Below are positions 5,266 to 29,632 of a stretch of 30,021 nucleotides of DNA, piece after piece. The translations under genes were made by a program, and so were the position numbers. The notes below the pieces were generated by a model. It was not told where the DNA came from, did no database searches, and saw only the letters and a list, made by a program, of their open reading frames with translations. Location: IMG/VR virus record IMGVR_UViG_3300045999_006266, positions 1 through 30,021 of that record. One strand, 5' to 3'. The stretch comes from a virus. Position 1 is the stretch's first letter. Each line of letters begins with the position of its first letter.

Positions 5266-5898
5266 GTGGCAGTCACCTTCACCGACACAACCAACGCCGC
5301 CGGACCGACCTTCGCGGGTCGTCCCGCTACGCAGACGGCGGGAGGAGCTCCCAAGCTCAACCTCCCGACGAACGCGCAGTGGTGGTACATATGGCATCCG
5401 GCGCGCTGGCAATGTATCGATGGAGAGTGGCTCCCCGTGCTCGCCCAGATGCGGGCCACCCCTGGCGTGAACGCCGTCGACAAGGACGGCGACACGTCGG
5501 GGGCGGAGACCAAGCTCCGTCGAGAGCACTGGACCGTGATTCCGTGGGACGTCATCGAGGGCGGATACGTCGTCGAGTACGATGGGGTGCGGGGTCCGGT
5601 GCGCCTGTCGCGGTGGGAGACCCCGCGCATGGTGGCGGGGCAAGTGGTCATCACGCCCGACGAGACAGGCTACCGGGAGTTCCTCCGGGGTCTTGTCTCG
5701 TCGGGCGTGGTTCGCGCCCCCGATCCCTACACCACCGACGCGATCAAGGAACGGCAGCGTTTCCGCGTCGCTGAGAACTCGAAGCGTGCCGCCAACGACC
5801 CGGAAGCCGCTCGTCGCCTCGAGGCCGACAAGGCCCTCCTGGCGCAGATGGACTCCGCTAAGGTGCCGACCGCGCCGTCCCGCAAGGGGCGCGCATGA
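5266..5898 (+). CDS. Conserved phage head protein of unknown function
   Basis: This 210-residue protein follows the capsid gene. It has an N-terminal beta-rich, Trp-rich region (residues about 35-60, including WWYIWHPARWQ), a central region with WTVIPWDVIEGGYVVEYDG, and a charged, helical Ala/Arg/Lys-rich C-terminus. The GTG start at 5266 has GGGAG at 5256-5260 upstream. The stop overlaps the start of the next small gene (ATGA). Its location points to a capsid-associated or head-completion role, but I do not recognise a family. It has no signal peptide or membrane segment. Confidence 0.8.
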   Translation: MAVTFTDTTNAAGPTFAGRPATQTAGGAPKLNLPTNAQWWYIWHPARWQCIDGEWLPVLAQMRATPGVNAVDKDGDTSGAETKLRREHWTVIPWDVIEGGYVVEYDGVRGPVRLSRWETPRMVAGQVVITPDETGYREFLRGLVSSGVVRAPDPYTTDAIKERQRFRVAENSKRAANDPEAARRLEADKALLAQMDSAKVPTAPSRKGRA

Positions 5899-26126: not shown

Positions 26127-26659
26127 CCCGCACAAACACCCCGTGGCGTTCGTCAGAGTTTGAGCGTGCCCGCCAGCTACGCGAGGAGGGCCTCTCCTGG
26201 CGAGAGGTGGGGGAGCGCCTCGGGCGGTCCGAGTCGGCGATGCATTCGATGGTCGCCGTCCTCAAGGACGCCGATTGGTCCGCGCGTGACCTAGTTGAGG
26301 TCGCGCCCCCGCCGGCAGTTCCGCCCAAGTACACCTACCGGCACTGGCGTCCGAGCGAGCTGGCGAAGGCGCGAGACATGCGCGCGAACGGCGCGACATG
26401 GCCCGAGATCGGGGCAGCCCTCGGGCGGCAACCCGACGCCGTCGCACAATACGTCGGCACGGCGAACAAGGAGGCCGCTATGGTCGAGGTGACCGGGCGG
26501 AAGAACGCTCGCTACGCCGCCCTCTCCGAGCATGAGCGGAAGCTCGTGGATGCGAAGCTGAACGAGGGCCTCGGTGTCCGCGCGGTGGGCGAGCACGTGG
26601 GCAGGCATTGGTACGTCATCAGCGTCTACAAGCGGACGAGGGGCATGCATGCCAGGTAG
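26123..26659 (+). CDS. DNA-binding protein with three Myb/HTH-like repeats
   Basis: A 178-residue protein with three related helical units: residues about 8-45 (FERARQLREEGLSWREVGERLGR), about 72-112 (ELAKARDMRANGATWPEIGAALGR) and about 130-170 (ERKLVDAKLNEGLGVRAVGEHVGR). Each has the pattern helix, Gly, Trp/Val-x-Glu-Ile/Val-Gly-x-x-Leu-Gly-Arg, helix, typical of helix-turn-helix or Myb/SANT-like DNA-binding units. A Pro-rich linker joins the first two. It probably binds phage DNA, as a transcription or replication regulator. It overlaps the next gene by 11 bases and forms a tandem pair with it. Confidence 0.72.
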   Translation: MTRTNTPWRSSEFERARQLREEGLSWREVGERLGRSESAMHSMVAVLKDADWSARDLVEVAPPPAVPPKYTYRHWRPSELAKARDMRANGATWPEIGAALGRQPDAVAQYVGTANKEAAMVEVTGRKNARYAALSEHERKLVDAKLNEGLGVRAVGEHVGRHWYVISVYKRTRGMHAR

Positions 26660-27116
26660 ACCGTGGACACGCTCGCAGTTGCTCGAGCTCCGTCGCCTGC
26701 ACGACGAAGGGAAGACGGCACGGCAGATCGCCGTGGCCCTCGACAGGTCGCCCGAGGCCATCCGCACCCTCCGCGGCACCCTCGGCTTGCGGTTCTACGT
26801 GAAGGTATCGCCCGAGGAGCGCGCGCAGATCGAAGAGCTCCACGCCGCGGGCGTCCGAGACATCGACATTGCGAGCCAGCTGGACCGCGCAGTGACTACG
26901 GTGAGGAAGATCCTCGGCATCCACCTGGCGGTGAAGAAGCCCTGGACAGGCGCGGAGACGAAGAAGCTCTACAGGCTGCGAGGCGAAGGGAAGACGTACC
27001 CGGAGATCGGCAAGCTGATGGACAGGTCGCCCCACGCTTGCGTCATGCGGTACGTGAACTGGGAGAAGGTGCGGAAGAAGCGCGAAGCCGACAGGAAGCG
27101 GCAACGCCGCGCGTGA
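26649..27116 (+). CDS. Second DNA-binding protein with three Myb/HTH-like repeats
   Basis: A 155-residue basic protein organised like its upstream neighbour: units at about residues 5-45 (LLELRRLHDEGKTARQIAVALDR), 55-95 (AQIEELHAAGVRDIDIASQLDR) and 100-140 (TKKLYRLRGEGKTYPEIGKLMDR). The repeated pattern with LDRS/MDRS and a following helix marks helix-turn-helix-like units. ATG 26649 lies inside the end of the preceding gene; the frame is open further upstream only as a shadow. It ends directly before the structured region at 27123-27299, a possible target for it. Paralogy with the neighbour is likely from the shared architecture. Confidence 0.72.
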   Translation: MPGRPWTRSQLLELRRLHDEGKTARQIAVALDRSPEAIRTLRGTLGLRFYVKVSPEERAQIEELHAAGVRDIDIASQLDRAVTTVRKILGIHLAVKKPWTGAETKKLYRLRGEGKTYPEIGKLMDRSPHACVMRYVNWEKVRKKREADRKRQRRA

Positions 27117-27122
27117 GGTTTG

Positions 27123-27214
27123 CCGTGAGACGTGGCCCTCGTCTAGGGTCTTCTTCAGGGGTCACGTCTCACGGTCTCGCGCTTGCACGGTTGCCAAGGT
27201 CCGGCTACGAGACG
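27123..27214 (+). repeat. Inverted repeats and GAGACG hexamers in origin-like region
   Basis: The perfect 12-bp inverted repeat CCGTGAGACGTG (27123-27134) and CACGTCTCACGG (27163-27174) extends by wobble and normal pairs to about 17 bp around an 18-base loop. A second pair, GTCTCG (27174-27179) and CGAGAC (27208-27213), follows. GAGACG or its complement occurs at 27127-27132, 27165-27170, 27209-27214 and again at 27276-27281, alternating in strand. The location between DNA-binding proteins and the primase suggests an origin or regulator site. Confidence 0.6.
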
Positions 27215-27220
27215 TTTGTC

Positions 27221-27299
27221 CTCGCCGGACGCGGGCTGATCCCCCGTAGGGGGGAGGGGCTGAAGCCCTTCCCCCCGTCTCCCCGGCAAGGTCGGCGAG
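27221..27299 (+). promoter_or_regulatory. Structured leader before the primase gene
   Basis: A 13-nt to 13-nt stem (27249-27261 with 27264-27276, one wobble) is nested inside the 7-bp outer stem CTCGCCG (27221-27227) with CGGCGAG (27293-27299). The outer stem ends three bases before the primase ATG at 27303 and pairs with the only purine-rich sequence near it, so it may hide the start. CCCCC (27241-27245) could instead pair with GGGGG (27249-27253), giving an alternative fold. Confidence 0.6.
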
Positions 27300-27302
27300 T
27301 AC

Positions 27303-28178
27303 ATGAACAGAGACTATGCCCTGCGCTATGCAGCGGCGGGGATGCGTGTGCACCCCCTGTACGAAGTAGACCCGGTCACACAGACCTGCGCTTGCCAAGC
27401 GGGCGCGTCATGCAGCGAGAAGCAGCGGGGCAAGCACCCGCGCCTCGGTGGCTGGCAAGAGAAGGCAACGACGGACGCCGACACCGTGCGGGCGTGGTGG
27501 ACACGCTGGCCCTCGGCAGGCGTGGGCCTCGCCACGGGTAGCGCCTCGCGCGTGTGGGTCCTTGACCTCGATGGGCCCGAGGCGGGCGCGTGGTACGAGG
27601 CGCAGGTCGCGCGGCACGGGCTCACGCGCACGCTGGGTGTCCACACCTCGCGGGGGTTTCACCTCTATTGGCGCTGGCCCGCGGACGCGGTCGTGAAGAA
27701 CGCCCAGGGGCTGAAGGCCGTGGGCGCACCGAACGTCGACGTGCGCGGCGAGGGTGGGTACGTCTGCGCCCCACCGACGGTGCACCGCAGCGGGCACGTG
27801 TACACGTGGGAGACGCAGCTCGCAGCGTTTCAGCGGGAGATGGTCGAGGCTCCGACGTGGCTGCTCGACATCGTGAAGGAGAAGCCGAAGCCGCCACCGA
27901 AGCGCCCGATCCGTGTCGAGCCTCGGGTCGCGTGGACGCGGGACGCGGCAGACCGCGAGCTCGCGCGTATGCTGCGCCTCGACCCATCGGCGCGGGTATC
28001 GCTCGGTGCCAGCCTGCAAGGGGACATCATGGACGCCGCGGGGCACGTGCGGCACGTTCGGTGCCCCAAGTGCGGCGATAGGTCCGTGTGGTGGACCATC
28101 GCAGGCCCCGGGCACGCCAAGTGCTCGCACGTCAACTCATGCGGCTACATCGCTCCCCTCATCGACCTGTGCACCTAG
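27303..28178 (+). CDS. PrimPol-type bifunctional DNA primase/polymerase
   Basis: A 291-residue protein with an N-terminal PrimPol (AEP superfamily) domain. C29, C31 and C37 precede GKHPRLGGW (residues 43-51). Catalytic aspartates D88 and D90 lie in WVLDLDGPE, TSRGFH (115-120) supplies the conserved His, and D146 follows in NVDVRGEGG. Together these form the metal-binding site for primer synthesis. A C-terminal zinc-binding module has C254, C257, C274 and C280. It likely primes phage DNA replication with the VapE-like ATPase encoded ten bases downstream. The start ATG 27303 has a poor ribosome binding site, covered by the structured leader. The family call is firm; the domain limits are approximate. 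Confidence 0.9.
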   Translation: MNRDYALRYAAAGMRVHPLYEVDPVTQTCACQAGASCSEKQRGKHPRLGGWQEKATTDADTVRAWWTRWPSAGVGLATGSASRVWVLDLDGPEAGAWYEAQVARHGLTRTLGVHTSRGFHLYWRWPADAVVKNAQGLKAVGAPNVDVRGEGGYVCAPPTVHRSGHVYTWETQLAAFQREMVEAPTWLLDIVKEKPKPPPKRPIRVEPRVAWTRDAADRELARMLRLDPSARVSLGASLQGDIMDAAGHVRHVRCPKCGDRSVWWTIAGPGHAKCSHVNSCGYIAPLIDLCT

Positions 28179-28187
28179 GAGTTCCTC

Positions 28188-29486
28188 ATGCCAACCCGTG
28201 AAGAGATGCGCGCATCGCTCAACATCGCCGCCCCAGCTGCCGACGAGGACTTCGACCTCGGGCTGGAAATGTTCCCGCCGAAGGTCGTGGGCGGCGTCAT
28301 CATCCCGTCGCGCCCCATGAAGACGGTGCGGAACCTAGATCGCATCCTCCGTGGAGATCCGATGTTCGCAGGCGCGATCCGCTGGAACGAACTGGCGCAG
28401 GCCGTGGAATGGTCGGGCCAGCTCATTCAGGACTACTTGGTATCCGAGCTCCGTATCGCCATCGCTGAGCGTCACGACGTGGAGTTTCCAGTGCGAGAAC
28501 TGAACGACATCATCGAGCTCATCGCCCGCGGGAACTCCTACCACCCCGTGCGGGAGTACCTCGAGACGCTCGAATGGGACGGGGTCCCCCGCCTGTCCTC
28601 CTGGCTCTCGGAGTGGCTCGGCGTCGAGGATACCGAGCTGGCCAAGGAGTACGCCCGCAAGTTCTTCGTGGGGGCCGTCGCCCGCGCGTATAGCCCCGGC
28701 TGCAAGATGCAGACGGCCCTCGTCCTGCACGGGCTTCAGGGCGCGTACAAGTCCACATTCGTCGAGACGATCGCCCGCCAGCCGAGCTGGTCCTCGACCA
28801 CGCAGATCGATTGGGACTCGAAGGACCGCTATCAGCAGATTCAGGGCAAGTGGTTCTACGAGCTGGGCGAGCTGAGCGGCATGGGGAAGGCCGACATGAA
28901 CACCATCAAGAACTTCCTCAGCAGCGACAAGGATTCGTTCCGCCCGAGCTACGGGCGCCACAACGTTGAGCGCCTTCGTCAGTGCGTCTTCATCGGTACG
29001 ACGAACGACGTGGACTGCCTCGCGGACCCGACAGGCGACCGCCGGTTCTGGGTCGTGACCGCGAACCGGATCGACATCGATCGCGTGCGCGTGGAGATCG
29101 ACGCCGTGTGGGCTGAAGCCGTGGTCGCCTACAAGGCAGGTGAACCTTGGCACCTCAGCCGAGAGCACGACCAGATGCGCGCTCGCGCGAACGAGGCCTA
29201 CAGGCGCGAGGATCCGCTTATGAACGCGCTGGCCAGCTACTCGCACGGGCGGTCGTGGTTCACCGCGCAGGACTTCTGGACGCACCTCGACTACCCGTTG
29301 CCCCAGCTCACGCAGTCGGTGCTCACCCGCATCGGGCAGGTCATGGCCATCATCGACACGCACGACCGCAAGCAGATCCGGGTCGGTGCCGCCCAGGTGC
29401 GCGGCTTCCGTCTCAGGCCCGCGTCGGATGCTTCACCCGTCACACCCTACGAGGACGAGGGTGTGACAAGGGGTGTGACATGGTAA
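28188..29486 (+). CDS. VapE-like P-loop ATPase (replicative helicase)
   Basis: A 432-residue protein of the virulence-associated E family, related to superfamily 3 helicases and normally paired with PrimPol. N-terminal helices precede the phage-typical SYHPVREYLETLEWDG near residues 117-132. The P-loop is GLQGAYKST at 182-190, with Tyr in place of the Gly before Lys; small or hydrophobic residues are seen there in other VapE proteins. Acidic E225 and E228 lie in WFYELGELSG. GTTNDVDCLADPTGDRRFW near 271-291 supplies sensor and Arg-finger positions. AGGAG at 28177-28181 precedes ATG 28188. The last codons carry GGTGTGAC repeats. Confidence 0.88.
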   Translation: MPTREEMRASLNIAAPAADEDFDLGLEMFPPKVVGGVIIPSRPMKTVRNLDRILRGDPMFAGAIRWNELAQAVEWSGQLIQDYLVSELRIAIAERHDVEFPVRELNDIIELIARGNSYHPVREYLETLEWDGVPRLSSWLSEWLGVEDTELAKEYARKFFVGAVARAYSPGCKMQTALVLHGLQGAYKSTFVETIARQPSWSSTTQIDWDSKDRYQQIQGKWFYELGELSGMGKADMNTIKNFLSSDKDSFRPSYGRHNVERLRQCVFIGTTNDVDCLADPTGDRRFWVVTANRIDIDRVRVEIDAVWAEAVVAYKAGEPWHLSREHDQMRARANEAYRREDPLMNALASYSHGRSWFTAQDFWTHLDYPLPQLTQSVLTRIGQVMAIIDTHDRKQIRVGAAQVRGFRLRPASDASPVTPYEDEGVTRGVTW

Positions 29487-29612
29487 ACCCGCCTAGAACC
29501 TACAATAATAGACCTTGTCACAGCCTCTTCAACCTTTAGTCAGTAAAACTTCTTAAGGGCTTTCGGATTCGTAGTTCATCAGATCACCCTGAAGAGGGTG
29601 TGACGGTGTGAC
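29439..29612 (+). repeat. GGTGTGAC octamer repeats around the VapE gene end
   Basis: Direct copies lie at 29460-29467, 29472-29479, 29597-29604 and 29605-29612, the last two touching. An inverted copy at 29439-29446 (GTCACACC) forms a 9-bp stem with the first (29439-29447 with 29459-29467). The stretch between the two groups (about 29490-29580) is the most AT-rich part of the window and has a CACCCT/AGGGTG stem at 29585-29600. Origin iterons or operator sites are likely. Confidence 0.7.
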
Positions 29613-29632
29613 GGGTGAAGCATGGAGGATCG

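Follow-up and report, generated by a model that had tools for sequence, protein, structure and literature searches.

In the leader of the MS2 maturation gene, the start region is buried at equilibrium and an alternative hairpin of the nascent RNA admits ribosomes (PMC6071253). Phage HK022 carries the cis-acting put RNA, of which putL lies just downstream of an early promoter and comprises about 70 nt with two stem-loops (PMC9378689). In the 5′ leader of HIV-1, an upstream strand pairs either with the start-codon region or with another site, and a palindromic loop, the DIS, mediates dimers (PMC7357161). Our literature search found no described phage replication-gene leader of such a kind. Here, we analyse positions 27218–27302 of a phage sequence, which in our judgement rather probably form a cis-acting bistable translational switch in the 5′ leader of the replication-operon mRNA.

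The window, that is, the whole stretch of DNA analysed, is a virus record of 30,021 bases with about 66% GC. Its terminase is followed by tail genes and then by an early region with ERF, a Cro/C1-type HTH protein, RusA, two HTH_38-repeat proteins, PrimPol and a VapE/D5-type helicase. The gap examined separates the second HTH_38 protein (26649–27116) from PrimPol (Table 1). Among known phages, we found neither a close relative of the window's primase or terminase nor a DNA match to the leader; a genome scan retrieved one short contig in a Chloroflexi bin, L078, which is too weak for a host call. The repeats that a preliminary description had gathered in the gap belong to two separate things, the leader and an inverted repeat upstream of its promoter.

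Table 1. Positions of the features in and around the leader within the 30,021-base window.
Feature	Position	Strand	Basis
Inverted repeat (16-nt arms) upstream of promoter, separate lineage-specific element	27123–27174	.	arms compared in relatives
Candidate −35 TTGCAC, 17-nt spacer	27183–27188	+	read from sequence; weak in window phage
Candidate −10 TACGAG, 6 nt before the leader's GTCC	27206–27211	+	upstream-sequence comparison
5′ switch strand GUCCUCGCCGGAC, predicted RNA 5′ end	27218–27230	+	core covaries with both 3′ partners
Hairpin P3 (27231–27235/27243–27247, loop CUGAUCC)	27231–27247	+	covariation
Hairpin P4 (27249–27260/27265–27276, loop UGAA)	27249–27276	+	covariation
Inner partner (decoy), core CCGGC 27283–27287	27277–27291	+	covaries with 5′ strand, 7 types
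Outer partner, core CGGCGAG 27293–27299, over ribosome-binding region	27292–27302	+	covariation
PrimPol primase gene, downstream of leader	27303–28178	+	PF09250, E = 8.5e-40
VapE/D5-like helicase gene, next in operon	28188–29486	+	PF05272, E = 8.7e-78

Searching with the primase yielded more than 20 phage loci that encode a close relative of it. Aligned at the start codon, most of these loci share an element of 85–105 bases that reaches to this codon, and many of them have unrelated sequence beyond its upstream end. Further members were obtained with DNA patterns and by searching with a small downstream protein, giving a total of about 30 phage contigs in which the leader stands directly before the first replication-operon gene; additional primase scans returned mostly contigs already known. 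Pattern matches in L040, L043, L050 and L051, as well as most matches from a later pattern search, lacked the fold and were discarded as chance. In the full-length records searched, a covariance model found the leader once per record. In Rfam, the window gave no gathering-level match, and no permissive match touched the gap (27117–27302). Within the leader, GTCC, GGAC and a C two bases after GGAC are kept in every member found. The element is probably the untranslated 5′ leader of the replication operon, comprising the first 85 bases of the primase mRNA.

The genes on either side of the leader differ between phages. Upstream we found HTH_38 proteins and, named by eye and not by profile search, a ribbon-helix-helix-like protein, a methyltransferase and a structural-type protein. 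Downstream lies either PrimPol or a small ORF that looks zinc-ribbon-like by eye (L044, L046, L049, L088, L109, L112, L120 and L129); in the two loci inspected further, L044 and L049, this ORF is followed by a methyltransferase and/or an O-like initiator, again named by eye. PrimPol was not found in the records of L044, L046 and L049, which may be incomplete. The leader is not primase-specific, and the suggestion that PrimPol regulates its own synthesis here is unsupported as it was put, because the same leader precedes an unrelated 53-aa ORF in phages without detectable PrimPol. Conversely, the leader is absent from L006, L022 and L025, in which the primase directly adjoins the gene before it; the promoter, too, is missing from L022 and L025, although L023 has both and its primase and that of L022 are 90% identical. 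The leader moves together with its promoter as a mosaic module between PrimPol-type and O-like initiation modules, which argues that its function is tied to replication timing and not to one protein. In L013 (3932–4060), a local duplication has left two consecutive copies of the primase's N-terminal sequence downstream of the leader (MSLEYELRYAAAGLRVHPRS, followed by TPMDYALRYAAAGLRVHP).

Inverted repeats and hairpins beside a PrimPol gene had suggested a replication origin or primase-loading hairpin at 27117–27302, a reading that we now regard as highly improbable. The gap has 65–72% GC and no iterons; the leader itself, at 72% GC, is among the most GC-rich parts nearby and not prone to melting, and it is dispensable in the three relatives that lack it. 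A better candidate lies just 3′ of the helicase at 29428–29623, which is likely to be the replication origin: it carries a perfect 19-bp inverted repeat and five GGTGTGAC iterons and contains a GC valley of 42%, thus combining iterons with an AT-rich element. This place is kept in the PrimPol relatives examined, which, beyond the 3′ end of the helicase gene, have iterons and a GC minimum at a similar distance; wherever enough sequence is available, the minimum falls 2.2–2.5 kb after the leader, and most relatives have an iteron type of their own (GGTGGCAC, GGTGGACA, GTCGGACA, GGTGGGAC, GTGTGGCA and others). G003, a relative without detectable PrimPol, carries a lambda-like palindromic iteron array of the GGGGGCTNGTTTNGCCCCC type (GGGGGC...GCCCCC) inside an O-like initiator gene (L055, 12318–12441).

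Of 25 distinct upstream sequences, 24 have a sigma70-like promoter right before the leader. Counting from the G of GTCC, with uncorrected offsets, T occupies −12 in 24 and A occupies −11 in 22 of the 25 (L007 and L008 are shifted in this count, and L018 is genuinely shorter by one base). As a rule, 6 bases separate the −10 hexamer from GTCC, and most relatives have TTGACG or TTGACC at the −35 place, 16–18 nt before the −10. Given this near-fixed spacing, transcription should start at the G of GTCC, the first base of the leader. As in a 5′ UTR, the leader lies downstream of a promoter, at the predicted transcription start, and adjoins the start codon. A GTCCGGC...GCCGGAC dyad (27199–27230) spans the −10 and the predicted start and might be an operator; it also occurs in L002 and L078, and partly in L005 and L091.

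The inverted repeat upstream of the promoter is a different matter. The 12-bp perfect repeat reported for the gap, with its extension, is real: the arms (27123–27138 and 27159–27174) span 16 nt and are 94% complementary around a perfect 12-bp core. At gaps of 100 or less, a perfect 12-bp inverted repeat appeared in 2 of 2,000 shuffles of the region, and the 30-kb window holds only one other. The arms are identical in L002, L012 and L078, with part of the loop differing in L002 and L012, and the repeat was seen in close relatives only and not before more distant leaders. It is possibly an operator or an atypical terminator; no U-run follows either this repeat or P4, as an intrinsic terminator would require. 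Four hexamers do alternate in strand order as described (GAGACG at 27127, CGTCTC at 27165, GAGACG at 27209, CGTCTC at 27276), but they do not form a conserved set of binding sites, because two of them are the arms of the repeat, L002, a close relative, has lost the copy at 27209, and the window contains 34 and 27 copies of the two hexamers. Elsewhere, inside a coding gene at 5652–5709, the window has a perfect 16-bp inverted repeat (CACGCCCGACGAGACA) with 26 bases between its arms.

Comparison of the relatives, which fixes the positions of the leader and its promoter, also defines its helices. P3 is paired in 100% of cells in 25 sequences, with changes on both sides in three of its five pairs (G-C/A-U/G-U, G-C/C-G and G-C/A-U), and P4 is paired in 100% of cells over nine aligned pairs, six of them doubly changed. 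Together, the hairpins have nine pairs with changes on both sides and 19 G-U cells versus no A-C cells; since the odd pairs are all G-U, the + strand is the folded strand. Over the whole structure of the inner state (described below), 53 cells show changes on both sides versus 15.5 in shuffles. Such compensatory base changes support the helices and mark a structured cis-regulatory leader RNA. The leader alone folds better than shuffles (z −3.7); the 186-base region as a whole does so too (z −4.0), but folding it as one transcript misleads because 27117–27217 lie upstream of the predicted start. The loops and the length of P4 are free to vary, except that the P3 loop is restricted: its core (within 27236–27242) is a palindromic tetramer, GAUC, AGCU or CAUG, in all members but one, L129 (UUCGCUA), and these tetramers are swapped between otherwise similar leaders (e.g. 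L017, L019, L088, L093 and L112).

The 13-base 5′ strand, in turn, has two 3′ partners, an inner segment after P4 and an outer segment that ends 1–8 bases before the start codon. As both pairings use overlapping bases of the 5′ strand, they are mutually exclusive. We compared seven divergent types of the 5′ strand (e.g. UCCUCGCCGGA, UCCUCGCAGGGA, UCCUUGUGGGA, UCCCCGUGGGA, UCCUAGCCGGA, UCCUCGUCGGA and UCCUGCACCGGGA) in a permutation test, in which the true assignment of partners was the best of 5,040 for the inner and for the outer pairing. When single segments were shuffled, 14 of 14 inner and 11 of 14 outer partners reached p below 0.05, the outer pairings of L005, L013 and L020 not being significant alone. 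The outer pairing has 97.6% of cells paired and changes on both sides in three of five pairs, and jointly with P3 it reaches 98.8% versus 89.9% in shuffled sequences. The column count of the inner pairing is only 88.7%, because the alignment slips in this segment; we drew the boundaries of both segments manually. No member of the set has a weaker inner pairing than the window itself (−14.1 kcal/mol, shuffle p 0.043), where local hairpins can take its place.

Since the two partners resemble each other, repeats that change in concert could account for some of the apparent covariation. L010 and L044, however, share a 5′ strand and carry its two complementary 3′ solutions in opposite order (GGCGAG then GGCAGGAC versus GGCAGGAC then GGCGAG), which is unexpected under simple repeat copying. 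The covariation of both alternatives in related phages bears out the notion of a leader that hides its start codon, and the nested pair noted just before the ATG, CTCGCCG (27221–27227) with CGGCGAG (27293–27299), is real and conserved. A two-state switch had also been foreseen, and it holds up in altered form, through two 3′ partners that compete for the 5′ strand; the CCCCC/GGGGG pairing proposed for it is not conserved, other members having CUCCGC or CCCGG at this place.

Two other readings bear directly on these pairings. The leader might be DNA, GTCC-N5-GGAC at +1 and its partial downstream copies serving as repressor sites. The invariant GTCC and GGAC do overlap the transcription start and each 3′ partner partly repeats the other, but we consider this quite improbable, as G-U pairs are confined to the sense that a folded + strand predicts, the covariation of P3 and P4 is that of helices, and the 3′ solutions found in L010 and L044 are no copies of a single site. 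Of the rivals that differ in kind, the chief one is a leader RNA with a static fold, which would act on RNA polymerase as put does or guard the mRNA 5′ end against decay, the second 3′ partner being incidental. An element of about 85 nt with strong hairpins, placed exactly at +1 of an early-type promoter, comparable in place and build to putL and indifferent to the identity of the following gene, would suit such a role; yet the outer partner always ends close to the start codon, and a static fold needs no second complement, whereas here both alternatives covary. We therefore think a static leader unlikely.

Constrained folding placed the two states within 3.5 kcal/mol of each other in 16 of 16 members tested, although in L020 both constraints gave an identical local fold and the "inner" optimum of the window was built from local hairpins. 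In models of the nascent, truncated RNA, the inner pairing formed with a probability of about 1.00 in 22 of 22 cases tested, and the outer partner, once present, competed with it partly or fully. By contrast, only some of the full-length models are dominated by the closed pairing. Most members have a weak Shine-Dalgarno sequence. Comparison and modelling thus point to two mutually exclusive folds, one of which would hide the ribosome-binding site, as in a translational riboswitch. A riboswitch or protein-sensing leader would keep this architecture and add a defined trigger: a metabolite, or a protein of the phage or the host, would bind one state, perhaps at the three-way junction or the P3 loop, and thereby set translation. 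We hold this to be possible but doubtful: the invariant GTCC, GGAC and following C, the restricted P3 loop and the nearly isoenergetic states speak for it, whereas the highly conserved single-stranded core typical of metabolite aptamers is missing, loops and P4 length vary freely, and no Rfam family matches.

The bistable switch that we favour would work as follows, its folding order and energy balance being modelled. Transcription would start at the first base of the leader, and P3 and P4 would fold first. The 5′-terminal strand would then pair with the inner partner upon its emergence, so that the bases preceding the start codon stay free (ON). Once made, the outer partner could take the place of the inner one through strand exchange and so bury the ribosome-binding region (OFF). 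With state energies nearly equal, a modest signal or mere elapsed time could decide between the two. We infer the effect on translation and its trigger, for which our first guess is time-limited translation of the nascent RNA and the alternative a bound ligand or protein; a second RNA might also serve as trigger. Very improbable, in our view, is a self-sensing dose switch, in which the P3 loops of two leader RNAs would kiss, so that a rising copy number of the mRNA, and hence of the template, would shift the fold and stop translation of the replication genes; this idea was suggestive until the loop of L129 broke the palindrome rule.

Read in this way, the leader adds to DNA phages a structured RNA class that is absent from Rfam, and places control at the RNA level on the entry gene of phage replication. 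One 5′-terminal strand with two separately maintained partners makes the comparative case for a bistable switch unusually clear, and the timing of replication-protein synthesis in phages becomes testable with a simple reporter.

Among the described systems, the MS2 (Leviviridae) leader is alike in its open nascent state and in a closing pairing that is made later, which in our case is modelled and dominates the full-length RNA of some members only. In contrast to MS2, the leader described here is found in DNA phages as a mosaic module ahead of replication genes, and its 5′-terminal strand has two dedicated, covarying partners. Like HK022 put, it is built of hairpins right downstream of a (predicted) promoter; put, however, has two stem-loops and binds the zinc-binding domain of RNA polymerase, whereas our leader has a long-range pairing to the start-codon region and a competing decoy. 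With translational riboswitches, it shares mutually exclusive pairings of which one hides the ribosome-binding site, but it differs from them in having no known ligand, no conserved unpaired aptamer core and no match in Rfam. With the HIV-1 5′ leader, finally, it shares one upstream strand that chooses between the start-codon region and another site; sequence and genome type are unrelated, and dimerisation, in the phage leader, is a guess from mostly palindromic P3 loops.
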